A DNA stretch of 8,966 nucleotides from Oscillospiraceae bacterium (GTDB taxonomy: Bacteria > Bacillota_A > Clostridia > Oscillospirales > WRJC01): positions 1 to 8,966 of the forward strand of contig WQXD01000143.1 in NCBI GenBank assembly GCA_009785015.1, read 5' to 3'. The notes under the pieces are model-generated. The model was not told the origin of the DNA. It did not search any database and worked only from the letters and a program-made list of their open reading frames with translations. This document shows, one piece after another, positions 1,809 to 8,966 of this stretch. The position numbers and the translations under genes are program-made. The first letter of the stretch is position 1; the number at the start of each line of letters is the position of its first letter.

Positions 1809-3269
1809 ATGAAAATAACAAAGGAATTTATTTCGTCTGTCAGTTTAAACGATACGGTTTTCAAAAACGGAGCGGATTTGGCCAAGAAAAAAAATTTCAA
1901 AAATTTGGCTGTGGATAAAGATAAGACATATATAAGCGGCGAATGTTTTGGAAGCGGCAAAAATCCCTATATTTGCTCAGTTGATTTTATCCTTGAAGAT
2001 TCCCCGGTTTTCCGGTGTTCGTGCCCGAGCAGGCAAATCCCCTGCAAACACGTCGTCGGTTTGCTTTGGGCATATATGGAAGGTCATTCTTTTTTTATTA
2101 CAACCATACCGGAGGAAATTTTGGCCAAGCGCGAGAACAAGCAGGAACGGGTAAAAAAAGCCAAGGAAAAACTTGAATCCGCCGAAAAAGACGATTCCGC
2201 CAAAGAAAAATCTTCCGCTTGGATAAAATCCGCGGTAAAAAAAATAGAAGCGCAGCTTGCCGGTATCGAAGAGGCTAAAAAAATACTTTTTGATTTCGCC
2301 CAATCGGGGTTTGGTTCGGTAGATTCCAAAATTATCGCCAATTATGTCGGCATTGTCAAACAGTTGGACAGTTATTTCATACCGGGAATCCAAAGCGAAA
2401 TCACCGATTTGTTCGCCATAGCGGGCAGCTGTATATCCGAAAAAGATAAATCCGATAATTTATGGCATATGGCCGCCGCCGAAAAATTATGCCGTATTTA
2501 TACCCTGCTCGAAAAAAGCCGCGAATATTTGGAAAACAAAAAATCGGCCCCCGACAAACCCGATATAAAAAGCGAAATCGAGGAACTTATCGGGTATGCC
2601 TGGAAATTGGAGGAACTTTCGCAGTACGGTTTGTTTGAAACAGATGCGAAACTTTTGCAGCTCTGTTTTCATGTAAGGCAGGAGGACGACAAAAAACAAT
2701 TTGTCGAAGAGGGTTATTATGTCAGCCTCAATTCCGGAAATATATACAAGACCCTAAATTACAGGCCTTATAAGGCGGTGAAATATATAAAAGAAGAAGA
2801 TTCGGTTTTTGACGTTTTGAATATACCCAAATTATATATTTATCCCGGCTCTTCAATTAATCCGAGGGTGCGATGGGACGAATTTTCGTTTGAAGCGGTC
2901 ACTTCGGATATATGCCGGTCTGTTTTGGCGTTTGCCAAACGCGATTATCAGGAAGTTATAAAATCCGTGAAAAATCAGCTTAAAAATTTATTTTTGCTCC
3001 CCCACCCCGCCGTGCTTTTGAATTTTGAAAAAATAATAAAAGCAGACGGCGGGGATTATGTGATATACAGCGGCGGCAATTCAATAAGGCTCAAAAAGAG
3101 CGGATATTTTATCCACAGTTTCGCTTTTCTGCTCGATTCACAATTGGATTCCGCTCCGAAAAAGCGCGCCGTACTGGCGGTTTTCGACAACGATATAAAA
3201 TCCGGCGAATTGTTCGCGCAGCCGGTCGCTCTTGTCACCGATGAAAAAATCGCGAGGCTGGTTTATTAG
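1809..3269 (+). CDS. SWIM zinc-finger protein of the MoxR/VWA/DUF5682 cluster
   Basis: The 486-residue product begins at ATG 1809, directly after a G-rich stretch (1799-1805) and 11 bases after the MORN stop. An in-frame ATG at 1701 would overlap the MORN gene and add an unrelated tail, so it is rejected. A SWIM zinc-binding motif CxCx6CxH is visible with ligands Cys70, Cys72, Cys79 and His81, preceded by the expected beta-strand region (about 40-70). SWIM domains bind zinc and mediate contacts with protein or DNA. Residues about 104-165 form a Lys/Glu-rich helical or coiled-coil stretch. The rest (170-486) is a family-specific region, helical at first and strand-rich near the end. It is a soluble cytoplasmic protein with no membrane segment. 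SWIM proteins accompany MoxR/VWA/DUF5682 genes in many bacteria, and E. coli yehQ is a comparable neighbour (recalled, not searched). A recognition or adaptor role is inference. Confidence 0.88.
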   Translation: MKITKEFISSVSLNDTVFKNGADLAKKKNFKNLAVDKDKTYISGECFGSGKNPYICSVDFILEDSPVFRCSCPSRQIPCKHVVGLLWAYMEGHSFFITTIPEEILAKRENKQERVKKAKEKLESAEKDDSAKEKSSAWIKSAVKKIEAQLAGIEEAKKILFDFAQSGFGSVDSKIIANYVGIVKQLDSYFIPGIQSEITDLFAIAGSCISEKDKSDNLWHMAAAEKLCRIYTLLEKSREYLENKKSAPDKPDIKSEIEELIGYAWKLEELSQYGLFETDAKLLQLCFHVRQEDDKKQFVEEGYYVSLNSGNIYKTLNYRPYKAVKYIKEEDSVFDVLNIPKLYIYPGSSINPRVRWDEFSFEAVTSDICRSVLAFAKRDYQEVIKSVKNQLKNLFLLPHPAVLLNFEKIIKADGGDYVIYSGGNSIRLKKSGYFIHSFAFLLDSQLDSAPKKRAVLAVFDNDIKSGELFAQPVALVTDEKIARLVY

Positions 3270-3299
3270 TTTGTTACTATAAAGAAAGGTTTTGTTAAA

Positions 3300-4985
3300 A
3301 TGGCGATACCTATATTATTTGAATTAAACGAAGAGCTTGTGCGTTTGTTTGCCGCGGGCAGCCGTTTGGCTTTTGGCGACCCGCGCTTAAAAAAATTCGT
3401 CGCTCCGCTTTTAAAATACGGGGAGAAAGCCCCTGTTTTTTTGAAACTCGCCGAACAATTGCAAAACCTCATTGAAACCGACGCCGCTTCCTCCGCGCAA
3501 AAATTGATAGAATCCGAATCGCTGTTACTATCCGTGCTTTCTACGCAGGGCGATACATTCCAAAAGTCCGGAGACATTCCCGAAACATCAAAGCATTCGG
3601 ATTATATCGCTTCCACAGATATAGGTTACAGGGAATTGGCTCCGGTTATCGAGGCGTTGACCACTACCGGCGGCGGCAGAATGGAGATCATACAGAATGC
3701 TTTTTCCAAGGGTTTATTCCGCGACCCCAGGCTGTACAGGGTTTCAATCGGAGCGCTCGGCGATAAATATGGGGAAATTTCCGAATTTATGGCGAACAAA
3801 GTTTTGCCTTCTATGGGTTCCGGCGTATTTCCTTATTTAGCCGAAGGGTACGACGTCAAAGGAGGCGCGTCCGACGGCAGGAGGCTTGCAGTGATGCATT
3901 CGCTCAAAGGCGAATATATGCTGGATTTGGCCGAAGACGCGGCGGAAAACGGAAGCGCGGTTGTAAAGGCTGAAGCGGTTAAAATCATGGCGTTTTATCC
4001 GCGTTATGAAGATACGCTGTTTTCCATGCTGGGCGAAAACAAAGCGGTGCGCGACGAGGTGATGAAAGCGCTTGTGAAAATGGATTCGCGCAGGGGCGTC
4101 GACAAAATAATGGAGATATATAAGACAAGCAAAGCGGAAACCATGGTGGACGCGCTACTTTCCGGCGAGGGCGAATATATAAGCGAAAAATTGCTCGATT
4201 TGGCTTTTAATCATTATGAAGTTCTCAAAAATGCCGGGGCGACGGCCAAAGACGCCGAAAAGCTGAAATTTGATTTGGCCGCTTTGGAAAACAAAACAAC
4301 CGACAAAGCGGTGGATTTTTTGAAAACGATGCTTTCCGAGCCGTATTTGGCAGAAGCCGAAAAGCTTTTTTCGAAAGAAAACAAAGCTTCGTATTATTAC
4401 AAAACCCTCGAGGAAAACGCGCTTGAAATTTTATATCATTCAAAAAAAGCCGACGATTATATATGGGATATGTTCAATGATTCGCGGGGCGGCATAGTAA
4501 ATAAAATATTTAAAAGAAAAAAGAACGAATTTCCCAAAACACTCTACCGTTACGCTTTTTATATCGGTTCAAAAAAACTTTCCCCCGATGATTTTTACAA
4601 TATGTTTTTCAAATCGGGATTGTACAAGGAGATATCGAAGCTCGATTATCGCGTATTTGCGAATGTTTTTTTGAAAAACGAAAATTCTCCGCCTTTTTCC
4701 GGCAAGATCGCTCGTTATTTCGCCGAGCAGATAGGCGACCATTCGCACATAAACCTGGCTCTTGAAATAGTATCCCAAAACGACTCGGGGACGCTCGATT
4801 TCATAGCCGATTATATAAAAACCATTTTGAAAAAAAGTACCTATTACTACAACAGTTTTGAAATAATGAAAAAATTCGGCGAATTTTATCACCATTCTTT
4901 CAAGGAATTGTTTGAGCTTTATTGCCAAAAATATAAGAATAATTCGTCGGATATCGAATATCTGCGGCAATTTTTGAAAAAATAA
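3300..4985 (+). CDS. HEAT-like helical-repeat protein of the MoxR/VWA/DUF5682 cluster
   Basis: The product has 561 residues, is soluble and is predicted to be nearly all helical. Residues about 125-300 show HEAT-like helix pairs, for example around RDPRLYRVSIGALGD (141-155), SAVVKAEAVKIMAFYP (219-234) and KAVRDEVMKALVKMDS (248-263), with the Asp/Arg and Ala/Leu spacing typical of such repeats. The C-terminal half (about 300-561) is Lys/Tyr/Phe-rich, helical and not recognised. The ATG at 3300 has a GAAAGG ribosome site at 3284-3289, 10 bases upstream. The gene lies 30 bases after the SWIM gene and 19 before the ATPase gene, inside the same apparent operon. Helical-repeat proteins are regular members of these clusters (related genes are often annotated DUF5691 or HEAT-repeat), but I cannot confirm which named family this belongs to. 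A scaffold or client-binding role is inferred from fold type and position only. Confidence 0.8.
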   Translation: MAIPILFELNEELVRLFAAGSRLAFGDPRLKKFVAPLLKYGEKAPVFLKLAEQLQNLIETDAASSAQKLIESESLLLSVLSTQGDTFQKSGDIPETSKHSDYIASTDIGYRELAPVIEALTTTGGGRMEIIQNAFSKGLFRDPRLYRVSIGALGDKYGEISEFMANKVLPSMGSGVFPYLAEGYDVKGGASDGRRLAVMHSLKGEYMLDLAEDAAENGSAVVKAEAVKIMAFYPRYEDTLFSMLGENKAVRDEVMKALVKMDSRRGVDKIMEIYKTSKAETMVDALLSGEGEYISEKLLDLAFNHYEVLKNAGATAKDAEKLKFDLAALENKTTDKAVDFLKTMLSEPYLAEAEKLFSKENKASYYYKTLEENALEILYHSKKADDYIWDMFNDSRGGIVNKIFKRKKNEFPKTLYRYAFYIGSKKLSPDDFYNMFFKSGLYKEISKLDYRVFANVFLKNENSPPFSGKIARYFAEQIGDHSHINLALEIVSQNDSGTLDFIADYIKTILKKSTYYYNSFEIMKKFGEFYHHSFKELFELYCQKYKNNSSDIEYLRQFLKK

Positions 4986-5004
4986 CAGCAAAGGATTTTA
5001 ATTT

Positions 5005-6084
5005 ATGGAAAATAAAAACACACTCAGGCTTCCGTCCGAAAAGCTGTACGCGCATGAAATCGAGGCTCTCATAAAAGAAGACGAGAAAGAGCAGAAGCCT
5101 TTCGGCTGGCAGTTGTCTCCCAGGGCCGTTTTAAAATTCATCGTGGGGGGCGATAAAATCACTCCCAAGTATTTGGGCCATGACAGGCTTGTCGAAATTT
5201 CGATAGCCACGCTTTTGACCGACCGCGCATTGCTTTTGATCGGAGAGCCCGGCACTGCCAAGTCCTGGCTTTCGGAAAATCTGGCCGCGGCTATTTGCGG
5301 AAATTCCAACAGGGTGATTCAGGGCACCGCCGGCACTTCCGAGGAACATATACGCTATTCCTGGAATTACGCGCTGCTTTTGGCCAATGGCCCCAGCCGG
5401 GAAGCGCTTATCAAAAGCCCTGTATTACATTGCATGGAAGAGGGCACGATCGCGCGCTTTGAGGAAATATCACGCTGCAGTTCCGAAGTCCAGGATGCGC
5501 TCATTTCGATTTTATCCGAAAAATATATATCCATTCCCGAATTGTCAGCAGAAACCGAAGCAGTCAGGGGGTTTTCGATCATCGCCACTGCGAACACGCG
5601 CGACAGGGGCGTGAACGATATGTCGTCCGCCTTGAAGCGCAGGTTTAATATAGTGGTGCTCCCCACCCCCGCGGACCTTGAAACCGAAGTCGATATTGTG
5701 CGAAGAAGGGTAAAAGAGATATCTTCGGCTTACAAGATAAACGCGAAAATCCCCGGGGAGGATTCAGTCTATAAAATCGTCACCATATTCAGGGAACTTC
5801 GCCAGGGGTTCACCACGGATAAGAGCCAGAAGATAAAACCGCCGAGCGGCGTCATATCCACCGCTGAGGCTATTTCGCTGCTCACCAACGGGATGGCGCT
5901 CGCTGCGAGTTTCGGCGACGGCAACATAAAAGAAAACGATTTGGCTGCGGGGCTCCAGGGCGCTATAGTGAAAGATGAAGACAAAGACAAAACGGCATGG
6001 AAGGAATATCTCGAAAATGTGATGAAAAAGAGGGGATCGGATTGGAGGAAACTTTACAACGCTTGCCAGGAGCTCAACAATTGA
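5005..6084 (+). CDS. MoxR-type AAA+ ATPase (YehL-like)
   Basis: The product has 359 residues, a usual length for single-domain MoxR ATPases. Walker A is GEPGTAKS at 80-87. The Walker B region reads ARFEEISR (150-157), with Glu-Glu where most AAA+ proteins have Asp-Glu. Then come VQDALISILSE (162-172), sensor 1 ATAN (194-197), RDRGVNDMSSALKRRFN (199-215) with the likely arginine finger at Arg212/Arg213, and a helical lid with PSGVISTAEAIS at 280-291, which lacks the usual sensor 2 arginine. MoxR ATPases form hexamers that use ATP to remodel or insert cofactors into client complexes together with a VWA partner; here that partner is encoded downstream at 8370. E. coli YehL is the nearest familiar homologue by context and size (from memory). 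The start ATG follows AAAGGA at 4990-4995. The stop overlaps the next gene's TTG start by sharing TTGA. The biological client is unknown. Confidence 0.95.
   Translation: MENKNTLRLPSEKLYAHEIEALIKEDEKEQKPFGWQLSPRAVLKFIVGGDKITPKYLGHDRLVEISIATLLTDRALLLIGEPGTAKSWLSENLAAAICGNSNRVIQGTAGTSEEHIRYSWNYALLLANGPSREALIKSPVLHCMEEGTIARFEEISRCSSEVQDALISILSEKYISIPELSAETEAVRGFSIIATANTRDRGVNDMSSALKRRFNIVVLPTPADLETEVDIVRRRVKEISSAYKINAKIPGEDSVYKIVTIFRELRQGFTTDKSQKIKPPSGVISTAEAISLLTNGMALAASFGDGNIKENDLAAGLQGAIVKDEDKDKTAWKEYLENVMKKRGSDWRKLYNACQELNN
6068..6072 (+). promoter_or_regulatory. Ribosome binding site that sets the DUF5682 start
   Basis: AGGAG lies inside the last codons of the ATPase gene, 8 bases before TTG 6081. 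It supports TTG as the initiation codon rather than the in-frame ATG at 5997, which would sit 88 bases inside the ATPase gene. Confidence 0.75.
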
Positions 6085-8354
6085 ATAATTTTGTTTTTAA
6101 TATATTCGGTGTGCGGCATTTGTCCCCCGCTTCGGCTCATCACCTTTTGGCTTATTTGAACAAGATACGCCCGAAATGCGTTTTGATAGAAGGGCCTTGT
6201 GATTTTTCGGAACTGCTCCCCCAAATCGCGAAAAAACAGGTCAAACCTCCGATCGCTATGCTCGGATATACCGCCGATTCTCCGATTCATACGGTTTTGT
6301 GTCCGTTTTCTTCTTATTCTCCCGAATATCAGGCGATTGTCTGGGCTTTTGACAACAAAGCCGAAGTTCGTTTCGTCGATTTGCCCGCATCGGCTGTCAT
6401 CTGTTCCGATATACGCCGGCATGAACATGAATCTTCCGATGAATACTTTACGGCGCAAAAGCAATTTTACGCCGACACGGTGACTTTGGCAGAAGAACCC
6501 GATTACGAAACATTTTGGGAACGGCATTTTGAGCACTGCCCGAATTCGGAAGCCTTCGTCGAAAAAATATCCGCGTTTTCGCATTCCATGCGCGAAAATC
6601 TCGAAGGCGTGCAATGGGAGACCCAAAAAAAAGACGCCGCCTATAACCATGTCCGCGAGGCTTTCATGAAGCTCCAAATACAAAAAACCCTCGGTAAATA
6701 CAAGCCCGGCGAAATCGTAGTCGTCGCCGGCGCGTATCATGTAAAAGGGCTCTCGGATGACACGCCTCCGATGAGTGAAGAAGAATTTGGACTGCTTCCG
6801 TCGGTTGAAGTCAAGTGCACGCTCATGCCCTATTCCTATTACAGGCTCTCCAGCCGTTCCGGTTACGGAGCGGGCAACAAAGCCCCCGCCTATTTTCAGT
6901 TGATGTGGGAATGTTTAAGGCGCGGCGATATGGAGCATTTAGCCCCGTTATACCTCTCAAATATCGGATCGCTTATGAGGGAATCGGGAAATTACAATTC
7001 CACGGCAAACGTCATAGAAGCGGTCCGGCTCTCCGAAAGTTTGGCTTTTATGCACGGCGGGGCATATCCGACCCTCAAGGATTTGCGCGATTCGGCGGTT
7101 TGTCTGCTCGGAGGGGGAGAGCTTTCCGCTGTTTCGGAAGCTCTGGCGAGAATCGATGTGGGCGTTATGATCGGCGAATTGCCGGAGGGCGTAAGCCAGA
7201 CTCCGGTTCAGGACGATATGAACCGGCAGTTGAAACGGTTGAAATTGGAAAAATACAAATCGGTGGTGGCGCAGGATATTTCGCTCGATTTGAGGGAAAA
7301 CCGTTTGGTGCAGAATTCGGAGGCTGCCAATCTCGATTTGAACCGTTCGATATTTTTCAACCGGCTGCAGCTGCTCGGAATCGGTTTCGCTTCATTTCGG
7401 GGAGAAGGTTCTTCTTCGTGGGGCGAAAATTGGGTTCTTTGCTGGACTCCCGAAAACGAAATCGAAGTGGTGGAAGCCACTCTCAAAGGCGAAACCATCG
7501 AAACTTCCGCGGCGTTTGTTTTAAAAGAAAAATTTGAAGCGGCAGGCAATATATTGGAAATCGCGAAACTCTTGCGCGTGGCATATGTTTGCCGCCTTTT
7601 ATCCGAAACTCAGAGCGGTTTGTCGCGCCTGCAGGCGCTTTGCGTCGAGAGCGAAAATTTCGCCGAGGCGGCAAATACCGCTTTTGAAATTTCAAATATC
7701 GTCAGATACCGCGATGTGCGCAATATAGACACGGCGCCGCTCATTCCGGTTTTGCGGCAGGTTTTTTTGAGGGCGGTTCTGGTGATGTTCGAAGGGGCGG
7801 CCTGCGACGATGAAGCTTCGAAGGCGTACATGGGCGCAATCGATTTTATGCACTCCGTTTCGCGCGAGCATTCAAATCATATCGACGACGCGCTCTGGCT
7901 CAAAGAGTTGCGCGCACTCGCCGATTCGGACAGCCGCAACGCCAAAATATCGGGCTATGCCGCCGCCGTTTTGATGGAGCGGGGACTTTTGTCCGACGAG
8001 GATTTGAAAATTTTTGTGTCCAAGCGTTTGTCATACGGCGTTCCCGGAGATCTTGCTGCTCTTTGGTTTGAGGGGCTCTCCGCGCGAAACCGTTATGTGC
8101 TGCTGTCCCGGGTTGGTATCTGGAAACAATTGGACGATTATTTGGATACTTTGGATGAAGCGGGTTTTTTGCGCGCCTTTGTTTTTTTGCGCAGGGCATT
8201 TTCTTCATTTGAGCCAAACGAAAAAAACAGCATCACCGATATACTGGCGGATTTGTGGAATATAGACGTCACCGAAATCGGCGGTTTTTTGCAGGGAGAG
8301 CTCTCCGAGAGCGAACAGGGCAGCTTCGACGAGCTCAACGAGTTCGAATTTTAA
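6081..8354 (+). CDS. DUF5682-type protein with EreA/ChaN/TraB-like N-terminal domain (YehM-like)
   Basis: I read this gene from TTG 6081, giving 757 residues starting (M)NNFVFNIFGVRHLSPAS. The TTG overlaps the ATPase stop (TTGA) and has AGGAG at the right distance, so the two genes are probably translationally coupled. The N-terminal region shows the family's motifs: GVRHLSP with His13, LIEGPCD with Glu37 and Asp41, a CPFSSYSPEYQA segment (74-85), RFVDLP with Asp100, and VVVAGAYHVKGL with His220. The GxxH plus hh-E-GP plus hh-xGxxH layout resembles the EreA/ChaN/TraB superfamily, whose members include erythromycin esterases and the haem-binding protein ChaN. Residues from about 265 to the end are mostly helical and family-specific. 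The length is close to the 759 residues I recall for E. coli YehM. There is no signal peptide or membrane segment. It is the likely enzymatic or effector component of the cluster; the reaction is unknown. Confidence 0.9.
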   Translation: MNNFVFNIFGVRHLSPASAHHLLAYLNKIRPKCVLIEGPCDFSELLPQIAKKQVKPPIAMLGYTADSPIHTVLCPFSSYSPEYQAIVWAFDNKAEVRFVDLPASAVICSDIRRHEHESSDEYFTAQKQFYADTVTLAEEPDYETFWERHFEHCPNSEAFVEKISAFSHSMRENLEGVQWETQKKDAAYNHVREAFMKLQIQKTLGKYKPGEIVVVAGAYHVKGLSDDTPPMSEEEFGLLPSVEVKCTLMPYSYYRLSSRSGYGAGNKAPAYFQLMWECLRRGDMEHLAPLYLSNIGSLMRESGNYNSTANVIEAVRLSESLAFMHGGAYPTLKDLRDSAVCLLGGGELSAVSEALARIDVGVMIGELPEGVSQTPVQDDMNRQLKRLKLEKYKSVVAQDISLDLRENRLVQNSEAANLDLNRSIFFNRLQLLGIGFASFRGEGSSSWGENWVLCWTPENEIEVVEATLKGETIETSAAFVLKEKFEAAGNILEIAKLLRVAYVCRLLSETQSGLSRLQALCVESENFAEAANTAFEISNIVRYRDVRNIDTAPLIPVLRQVFLRAVLVMFEGAACDDEASKAYMGAIDFMHSVSREHSNHIDDALWLKELRALADSDSRNAKISGYAAAVLMERGLLSDEDLKIFVSKRLSYGVPGDLAALWFEGLSARNRYVLLSRVGIWKQLDDYLDTLDEAGFLRAFVFLRRAFSSFEPNEKNSITDILADLWNIDVTEIGGFLQGELSESEQGSFDELNEFEF

Positions 8355-8359
8355 GCAGC

Positions 8360-8364
8360 GGAGG
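8360..8364 (+). promoter_or_regulatory. Ribosome binding site of the VWA-protein gene
   Basis: A full GGAGG lies 5 bases before ATG 8370, in the 15-base gap after the DUF5682 stop. It is the strongest ribosome site in the window and fixes the start of the right-edge gene. Confidence 0.8.
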
Positions 8365-8369
8365 CATTG

Positions 8370-8966
8370 ATGAATACAGACAAGCTGAAAAAGTGGCGCT
8401 TGATTTTGGGCGCGGAAGCAAATAAGCCGCTTGCCGCCATGAGTGAAAACCCGAATGATTTTTCGCTTGGCGAAGAAGAAAAAATCATGGATGAGGCGCT
8501 CGCTGCGATTTACGACGAAACCGGCGACGGCGACAGTTTCGGTCAGGGTGTATCGGGCAAAGGCGCAAAACAGGCCGGTCTCGGCAAATCGGCGCCCAAT
8601 TTGGCCAAATGGCTCACGGATATAAGAAAATTTTTTCCCCAGGACGTCGTTTCGGTGATTCAGTCCGACGCCATAAACAAAAAAGGTTTGACACAGCTTT
8701 TGCTGGAACCCGAGACTTTGCAAACGGTAAAGCCCGACATTTCCATGGTGGCCACGCTCATGGCCCTGAACCGCCGGATACCCGAAAAGGCGAAGGATTC
8801 GGCGAGGGCATTGATCAAAGCCGTGGTAGACGAGATCATGAAAAAAATGGAGCAGGATCTCACGCGGGCGGTCATGGGCGCACTCAACAAAAAAAACCAC
8901 TCTCCCCTGCCCTCCGTCACCGGAATGGACTGGAAGCGCACGATAAACAAAAACCTCGGACATTAC
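8370..8966 (+). CDS. VWA-domain protein, N-terminal part only (YehP-like)
   Basis: The reading frame is open from ATG 8370 to the window edge, giving 199 residues with no stop, so the gene is cut. The visible part matches the helical N-terminal region of the VWA partner that follows DUF5682 genes: MNTDKLKKWRLILG (1-14), an acidic Gly-rich linker (about 49-70), GLGKSAPNLAKWLTDIRKFF (70-89), a segment with GLTQLLLEPE (106-115), LMALNRRIPEK (130-140), and DWKRTINKNLGHY (187-199), which normally sits just before the VWA domain. The VWA domain and its metal-ion (MIDAS) residues lie beyond the window. In MoxR systems the VWA protein delivers or recognises the client for the ATPase. Homologues recalled are about 380 residues, so about half is present. 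The identification rests on recognised family motifs and gene order. Confidence 0.85.
   Translation, partial: MNTDKLKKWRLILGAEANKPLAAMSENPNDFSLGEEEKIMDEALAAIYDETGDGDSFGQGVSGKGAKQAGLGKSAPNLAKWLTDIRKFFPQDVVSVIQSDAINKKGLTQLLLEPETLQTVKPDISMVATLMALNRRIPEKAKDSARALIKAVVDEIMKKMEQDLTRAVMGALNKKNHSPLPSVTGMDWKRTINKNLGHY

Follow-up and report, generated by a model that had tools for sequence, protein, structure and literature searches.

The window analyzed here, an 8,966-nucleotide stretch of DNA from an Oscillospiraceae bacterium (contig WQXD01000143.1), carries five co-directional genes predicted to encode a SWIM zinc-finger protein, a HEAT-repeat protein, a MoxR-type AAA+ ATPase, a DUF5682 protein and a VWA protein. 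A first-pass annotation had described them as a tightly spaced set, and the intergenic gaps of 30, 19, -4 and 15 bases were reproduced exactly. The genes are as follows:

1809..3269, + strand: SWIM zinc-finger protein, 486 amino acids (Pfam SWIM and motif)
3300..4985, + strand: HEAT-repeat protein, 561 amino acids (HEAT_2 in the window protein and relatives)
5005..6084, + strand: MoxR-type AAA+ ATPase, yehL relative, 359 amino acids (AAA_5, bpMoxR)
6081..8354, + strand: DUF5682 protein, yehM relative, 757 amino acids (Pfam DUF5682)
8370->8966, + strand: VWA (CoxE-like) protein, yehP relative, N-terminal 199 amino acids, frame open at the window end

The SWIM protein matched its Pfam family at E 1.9e-5 (24.5 bits against a cut-off of 19.6), the ATPase matched AAA_5 at E 8.5e-35 and bpMoxR at 30.1 bits against a cut-off of 27, and the DUF5682 protein matched its own family at E 7.6e-135. 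The DUF5682 frame starts with a TTG at 6081, although an in-frame ATG at 5997 may serve instead. Inside the window, the fifth frame matches no Pfam family. Its product is 76% identical over 193 amino acids to the N-terminus of the protein encoded at L001:10281-11483 in a Clostridiales metagenome-assembled genome, which carries a VWA_CoxE domain (E 4.4e-49, residues 163-379), and we therefore conclude that the fifth gene is a VWA gene. The set had also been called complete-looking. This holds for the type of locus, but not for the window itself, where the fifth frame ends at 199 amino acids and the VWA domain lies essentially beyond the last base.

Co-inheritance and gene order of the five families

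Like searches, each scoring 7997 candidates, returned at least 3742 DUF5682 relatives (at E <= 0.001), at least 461 SWIM relatives and at least 31 HEAT relatives, with matches listed for 120 of the 3742 and 120 of the 461. We read 25 DUF5682 neighborhoods, three of which (L002, L025 and L033) are cut by contig ends. In all 22 untruncated neighborhoods, genes for SWIM, MoxR, DUF5682 and VWA proteins stood together with a gene for a HEAT, DUF5691 or DUF4132 protein, a few of them broken. These neighborhoods span Bacillota, Fusobacteriota, Bacteroidota, Deinococcota, Actinomycetota and Pseudomonadota. They include near relatives (L003/L009, L008/L041, L005/L040, L010/L038 and L027-L029), and those from plasmids represent 14 of 34 matching plasmid records. 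Most profile matches within them are to sequences from which the profiles were built, and the SWIM matches are independent in L005, L008, L009, L035, L036 and L041 only. Among the truncated neighborhoods, about 2.1 kb separates DUF5682 from VWA in L025. Broken genes were a SWIM gene spread over two frames (L005), a VWA gene in three pieces (L007), and split DUF5682 and SWIM/DUF5691 genes (L041). Among the matches listed, we also considered the 27 DUF5682 proteins nearest to that of the window. Of these, 13 are on contigs of 10 kb or longer, and for 10 of the 13 a SWIM relative was found on an equally long contig.

Two gene orders were observed. Type A, the order of the window, runs SWIM, HEAT or DUF5691, MoxR, DUF5682, VWA. 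Type B, the order of E. coli, runs MoxR, DUF5682, VWA, with SWIM last; here the DUF4132 gene lies before MoxR in E. coli and Proteus, between DUF5682 and VWA in Sinorhizobium and Allorhizobium, and between VWA and SWIM in L026-L029. In the E. coli loci (L003 and L009), yehL is adjoined by two DUF4132 genes in tandem, yehI and yehH, the latter being a pseudogene in K-12. The SWIM genes of type B from E. coli and rhizobia (L003, L009, L010 and L038) encode a further CxCx(n)CxH motif, which follows the first at a distance of about 290 bases. SWIM and DUF5691 are joined in one frame in a Hymenobacter (L008) and a Nocardia (L035), and are split in a second Hymenobacter.

Trees and motif counts were made from 18 of the 22 loci (all except L007, L009, L028 and L041), with the window outside the set. 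The split between types A and B was common to the MoxR, DUF5682 and VWA trees, and their distances correlated at r 0.96-0.99, a value reached in none of 2000 permutations, although such a correlation would be expected from plain vertical descent too. The first-pass annotation had called for a neighborhood survey of co-occurrence and had treated the five genes as one multi-protein system. The homologs proved not to be scattered, and we conclude from the 22 untruncated neighborhoods and the congruent trees that the genes are co-inherited as one system.

The suggested kinship with E. coli yehL-yehM-yehP was also borne out, in that yehL-yehM-yehP-yehQ place MoxR, DUF5682, VWA and SWIM genes together, in the same families as the ATPase, DUF5682, VWA and SWIM proteins of the window, and yehM is itself a DUF5682 gene whose product matches the window protein. 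The E. coli locus differs in having the DUF4132 protein YehI where the window has the HEAT protein and in placing the SWIM gene last rather than first, and its DUF5682 copies are about 26% identical to the window protein over 66% of the query. To our knowledge, no role has been assigned to yehL-yehM-yehP-yehQ or yehI. Our text searches listed few papers that name these genes, and no title among them was devoted to the genes.

A predicted TraB/TIKI-like domain in the DUF5682 protein

The DUF5682 protein is predicted to have two main parts: an N-terminal third that resembles TraB/TIKI proteins (matched from about residue 2 to 228) and a C-terminal alpha-solenoid (about residues 462-751). The TraB/TIKI likeness of the N-terminal third, which is drawn from profile comparison, is new in this analysis. 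With hhalign, the N-terminal profile matched the TraB family at 96.1% (P 3.1e-9). The controls gave no more than 0.3% for unrelated profiles, no more than 0.9% for 30 column-shuffled TraB profiles and 0.7% for the reversed TraB profile. In addition, GxxH, E, D and GAxHxxG were in register; in DUF5682 these residues are GxxH at 10-13, E37, D100 and GxxH at 217-220. R12, H13, E37, D100, E151, E193, G217 and H220 were invariant in an alignment of 75 DUF5682 sequences; the glycine of the first GxxH was present in 70 and that of the second in all 75. The DUF5682 protein thus carries the TraB/TIKI hallmark of two GxxH motifs and a conserved glutamate.

The 60 close DUF5682 sequences alone gave 91.4% over 196 columns, and the 15 distant sequences alone gave 95.7%, but over 49 columns only. 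Single-sequence Pfam scans returned only weak matches to the TraB/TIKI superfamily. An AlphaFold2 model of the protein (mean predicted local distance difference test score, pLDDT, 88.8) had as its best match among the viral structures of BFVD a TraB protein (probability 1.00, E 0.015). Against PDB folds, no TIKI structure appeared among the 50 matches listed, which were filled by solenoid-type matches, and when the DUF5682 alignment was compared with PDB chain sequences, a repeat protein alone came back (E 0.21). DUF5682 therefore shares with the TraB/PrgY/gumN family of the TIKI superfamily both profile similarity and a GxxH-E-GxxH arrangement in register, whereas it differs in its extra C-terminal solenoid of about 290 residues and in its MoxR and VWA gene neighbors. 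Taken together, the profile, motif and BFVD results indicate that DUF5682 is best read as a putative TraB/TIKI-like hydrolase with a solenoid tail, its activity and substrate being predictions, and they support the earlier suggestion that it is the effector or client of the system.

The SWIM, HEAT and motor subunits

The SWIM protein is predicted to have three parts: a SWIM domain (residues 1-99), a helical middle, and a C-terminal tandem domain resembling the oligonucleotide/oligosaccharide-binding (OB) fold (about residues 274-480). Its zinc-ligand motif, CxCPSRxxPCKH, lies at residues 70-81, and the protein has both the CxCx(n)CxH ligands and the SWIM fold of the family. The predicted tandem OB-like domain is similar, with modest scores, to the HIN-200 and RPA folds; its combination with a SWIM finger is a prediction new in this analysis. 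On the strength of these modeled folds, the SWIM-OB subunit is probably a nucleic-acid binder, in keeping with the proposal that the SWIM protein recognizes a target. The window-type SWIM profile matched the Deinococcus/Rhizobium type at 99.8% over 278 columns. We rejected a 66% match between the window type and the E. coli type; it covered only 56 columns, all of them outside the zinc finger, and thus the C-terminal likeness of these two types is not established.

The HEAT protein of the window matched HEAT_2 at E 5e-4, below the cut-off, and 24 of 26 HEAT relatives matched HEAT_2 at E <= 1 (best 3.5e-11). The DUF5691 protein of other type A loci occupies the same gene position, and we considered the HEAT protein as its relative. 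This was rejected after hhalign gave 0.1-0.2% (with a DUF5691 profile of 5 sequences), and DUF5691 was absent among the 25 of 39 families listed for the 26 HEAT relatives. Because profile similarity is lacking, we claim equivalence of the HEAT and DUF5691 proteins by position alone. A comparison with DUF4132 was likewise set aside at a match of 2.2%.

The motor components were well preserved. The Walker A motif, sensor-1 asparagine and arginine finger expected of a MoxR ATPase were intact in all 18 aligned loci and in the window protein. Walker B, whose usual form is DE, reads EE in every one of them. For the VWA proteins, counted in the 18 loci since the window's VWA domain lies beyond its end, the residues of the metal ion-dependent adhesion site were intact apart from small exceptions in L006 and L039: the first motif, DxSxS, and the third aspartate were present in 18 of 18, and the threonine is replaced by asparagine in L006. 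Both VWA relatives scanned (L001 and E. coli) carry VWA_CoxE.

Identity among five type A systems fell in the order MoxR, VWA, DUF5682, SWIM, HEAT in all 10 pairs, making the HEAT protein the fastest-evolving subunit with the lowest identity of the five in every comparison. Between the window and L001, the values were 86% for MoxR, 76% for VWA (the N-terminal part only of the window protein), 68% for DUF5682, 59% for SWIM and 51% for HEAT. A well-conserved motor with a fast-changing rim would fit a machine in which the outer subunits choose the targets.

A proposed ATP-driven machine and its alternatives

We propose, with moderate confidence, that the five genes encode a single ATP-driven machine. 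In it, the SWIM-OB and HEAT subunits would choose the targets, and a MoxR/VWA motor would arm a TraB-like hydrolase or position it there; activity, substrate and assembly are all inferred. By way of the VWA protein, the MoxR ring would bind DUF5682 and remodel it, and this remodeling would switch on its hydrolase, most likely a peptidase, or seat its metal. Nucleic acid, or a protein bound to it, would be recognized by the SWIM-OB protein. The HEAT protein, replaced in relatives by DUF5691 or DUF4132, would link recognition to the motor and give lineage-specific targeting. If this is true, DUF5682 would be a new class of client for MoxR/VWA motors. The TraB/TIKI reading offers candidate catalytic residues that can be mutated in a laboratory strain, and the reading of the SWIM partner as a nucleic-acid binder suggests which ligands to offer.

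An alternative that we consider possible, if on the unlikely side, is a chaperone for cofactor insertion or enzyme activation, in which MoxR and the CoxE-like VWA protein act as NorQD does on nitric oxide reductase, inserting a metal or opening an enzyme, and DUF5682 is a scaffold or a ChaN-like carrier of metal or haem rather than a hydrolase. According to a proposal in a passage of PMC13036017, the NorQD pair inserts iron by twisting its client, and NorQD and other MoxR/VWA chaperones resemble the proposed machine in that an ATPase and its VWA partner remodel a client. The VWA_CoxE domain in both VWA relatives scanned favors this alternative, as do weak matches to ChaN haem-binding proteins in 8 of 60 DUF5682 sequences and a second-hand tie of DUF4132/MolR to molybdate use, in passages of PMC8533742 and PMC4245954. 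However, the DUF5682 match to TraB was stronger than that to ChaN, for which hhalign gave 17.6% (with a ChaN profile of 3 sequences). Unlike NorQD, the system has additional SWIM and HEAT subunits and its client would be DUF5682; it is not obvious what the SWIM-OB protein would do in metal insertion. In the annotated loci, of which no systematic survey was made, no common metalloenzyme gene was conspicuous next to the system.

A more specific form of the proposed machine, which we regard as unlikely, is a nucleic-acid-triggered proteolytic machine that is core in bacteria. The SWIM/tandem-OB protein would sense exposed single-stranded DNA or RNA, MoxR/VWA would arm DUF5682 as a TraB/TIKI-fold protease to clear or process proteins there, and E. 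coli yehI-yehLMPQ would be its laboratory example.

We think it quite unlikely that the locus is a conflict system, that is, a defense unit like the MoxR-vWA ternary systems, with a TIKI-type effector and SWIM and HEAT sensors of invaders. Ternary conflict systems are on record in the main text of PMC7159879, which contains no mention of SWIM, Tiki or YehL. They likewise combine MoxR, a VWA adaptor and a further conserved component, and the MoxR of the window scores above the cut-off for bpMoxR. The further component here is DUF5682, whereas in ternary systems it is VMAP, iSTAND, FtsH or a beta-propeller; Pfam scans of the window's other proteins and of relatives found no VMAP, STAND, FtsH or propeller family. 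The two VWA proteins scanned have no extra effector domain. With PADLOC 2.0.0, the window proteins gave only weak matches to proteins of known anti-phage systems (mad8 at E 7.3e-5 and PDC-M37B at E 0.0029 for the ATPase, DpdH at E 0.0062 for the SWIM protein).

Distribution bears on the conflict reading from both sides. In the phylum of L001, 8 of 398 genomes had DUF5682 above the cut-off, and in its closer kin 1 of 61 did, L001's own; some plasmid copies are broken (L005, L007 and L041). This patchiness is what a conflict system might show, and together with the broken copies it suggests that the system is dispensable. Weak matches to DUF5682 in G258, G264 and G287 were dropped, since none of the components was found in the corresponding loci (L030-L032, L032 being a 3.9-kb contig); equally weak matches occurred in G437 and G448. 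In contrast, 5284 of 5426 E. coli genomes contained yehM, 5166 of them with 80% or more of the gene in a single place, and 2 of 5291 places were on plasmids. Its linked partners are probably near-universal in E. coli as well. Such a distribution argues against mobile anti-phage defense, and yehM, near-universal in the best-studied bacterium, belongs to a gene set that few papers in our text searches name.

Viral records and flanking genes also offered the conflict reading little. One phage-labeled record of 50,697 contained DUF5682 (L033, MT835988.1). There MoxR, DUF5682 and VWA genes lie beside an MgsA-like ATPase, a polysaccharide deacetylase and DUF5716/5717, and the record looks like a bacterial scaffold. 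An IMG/VR scan yielded 2 pattern matches and confirmed neither; its query was a single sequence, which picks up only close relatives. The ten flanking genes scanned, taken from five loci, were mostly ordinary: eight encoded a desaturase, a DesK kinase, a semialdehyde dehydrogenase, EAL, EngA, DUF4430, MatE and WG-repeat proteins, one had no match above cut-off, and one was a DNA methylase beside the Fusobacterium copy. In L001, the whole five-gene set (L001:3816-11483) lies in a housekeeping cluster between ribosomal-protein genes and rpoB, as read by eye from the translations. The core status of yehM in E. coli, the weak PADLOC matches, the ordinary flanks and the housekeeping setting in L001 favor a role in chromosomal stress or quality control over mobile defense, and we conclude that the former is likely; the conflict role that the first-pass annotation had left open found little support. 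Finally, a coincidental operon of neighbors without a common machine is very improbable given the co-inheritance across phyla and the congruent trees.

Three minor observations concern the surroundings of these loci. In Nocardia farcinica (L035), the system is preceded, a few kb upstream, by an rpoB2 rifamycin-resistance annotation, a second RNA polymerase neighbor that may be due to chance. The Fusobacterium record L034 (NZ_CP084075.1), at 2.1 Mb, is filed as a plasmid and is probably a chromosome; other plasmid matches are also of megabase size. In the window, a MORN-repeat protein gene (508-1797), relatives of which never came out as best match for a frame in the neighborhoods read, ends 11 bases upstream of the SWIM start and may share a transcript with the SWIM gene.

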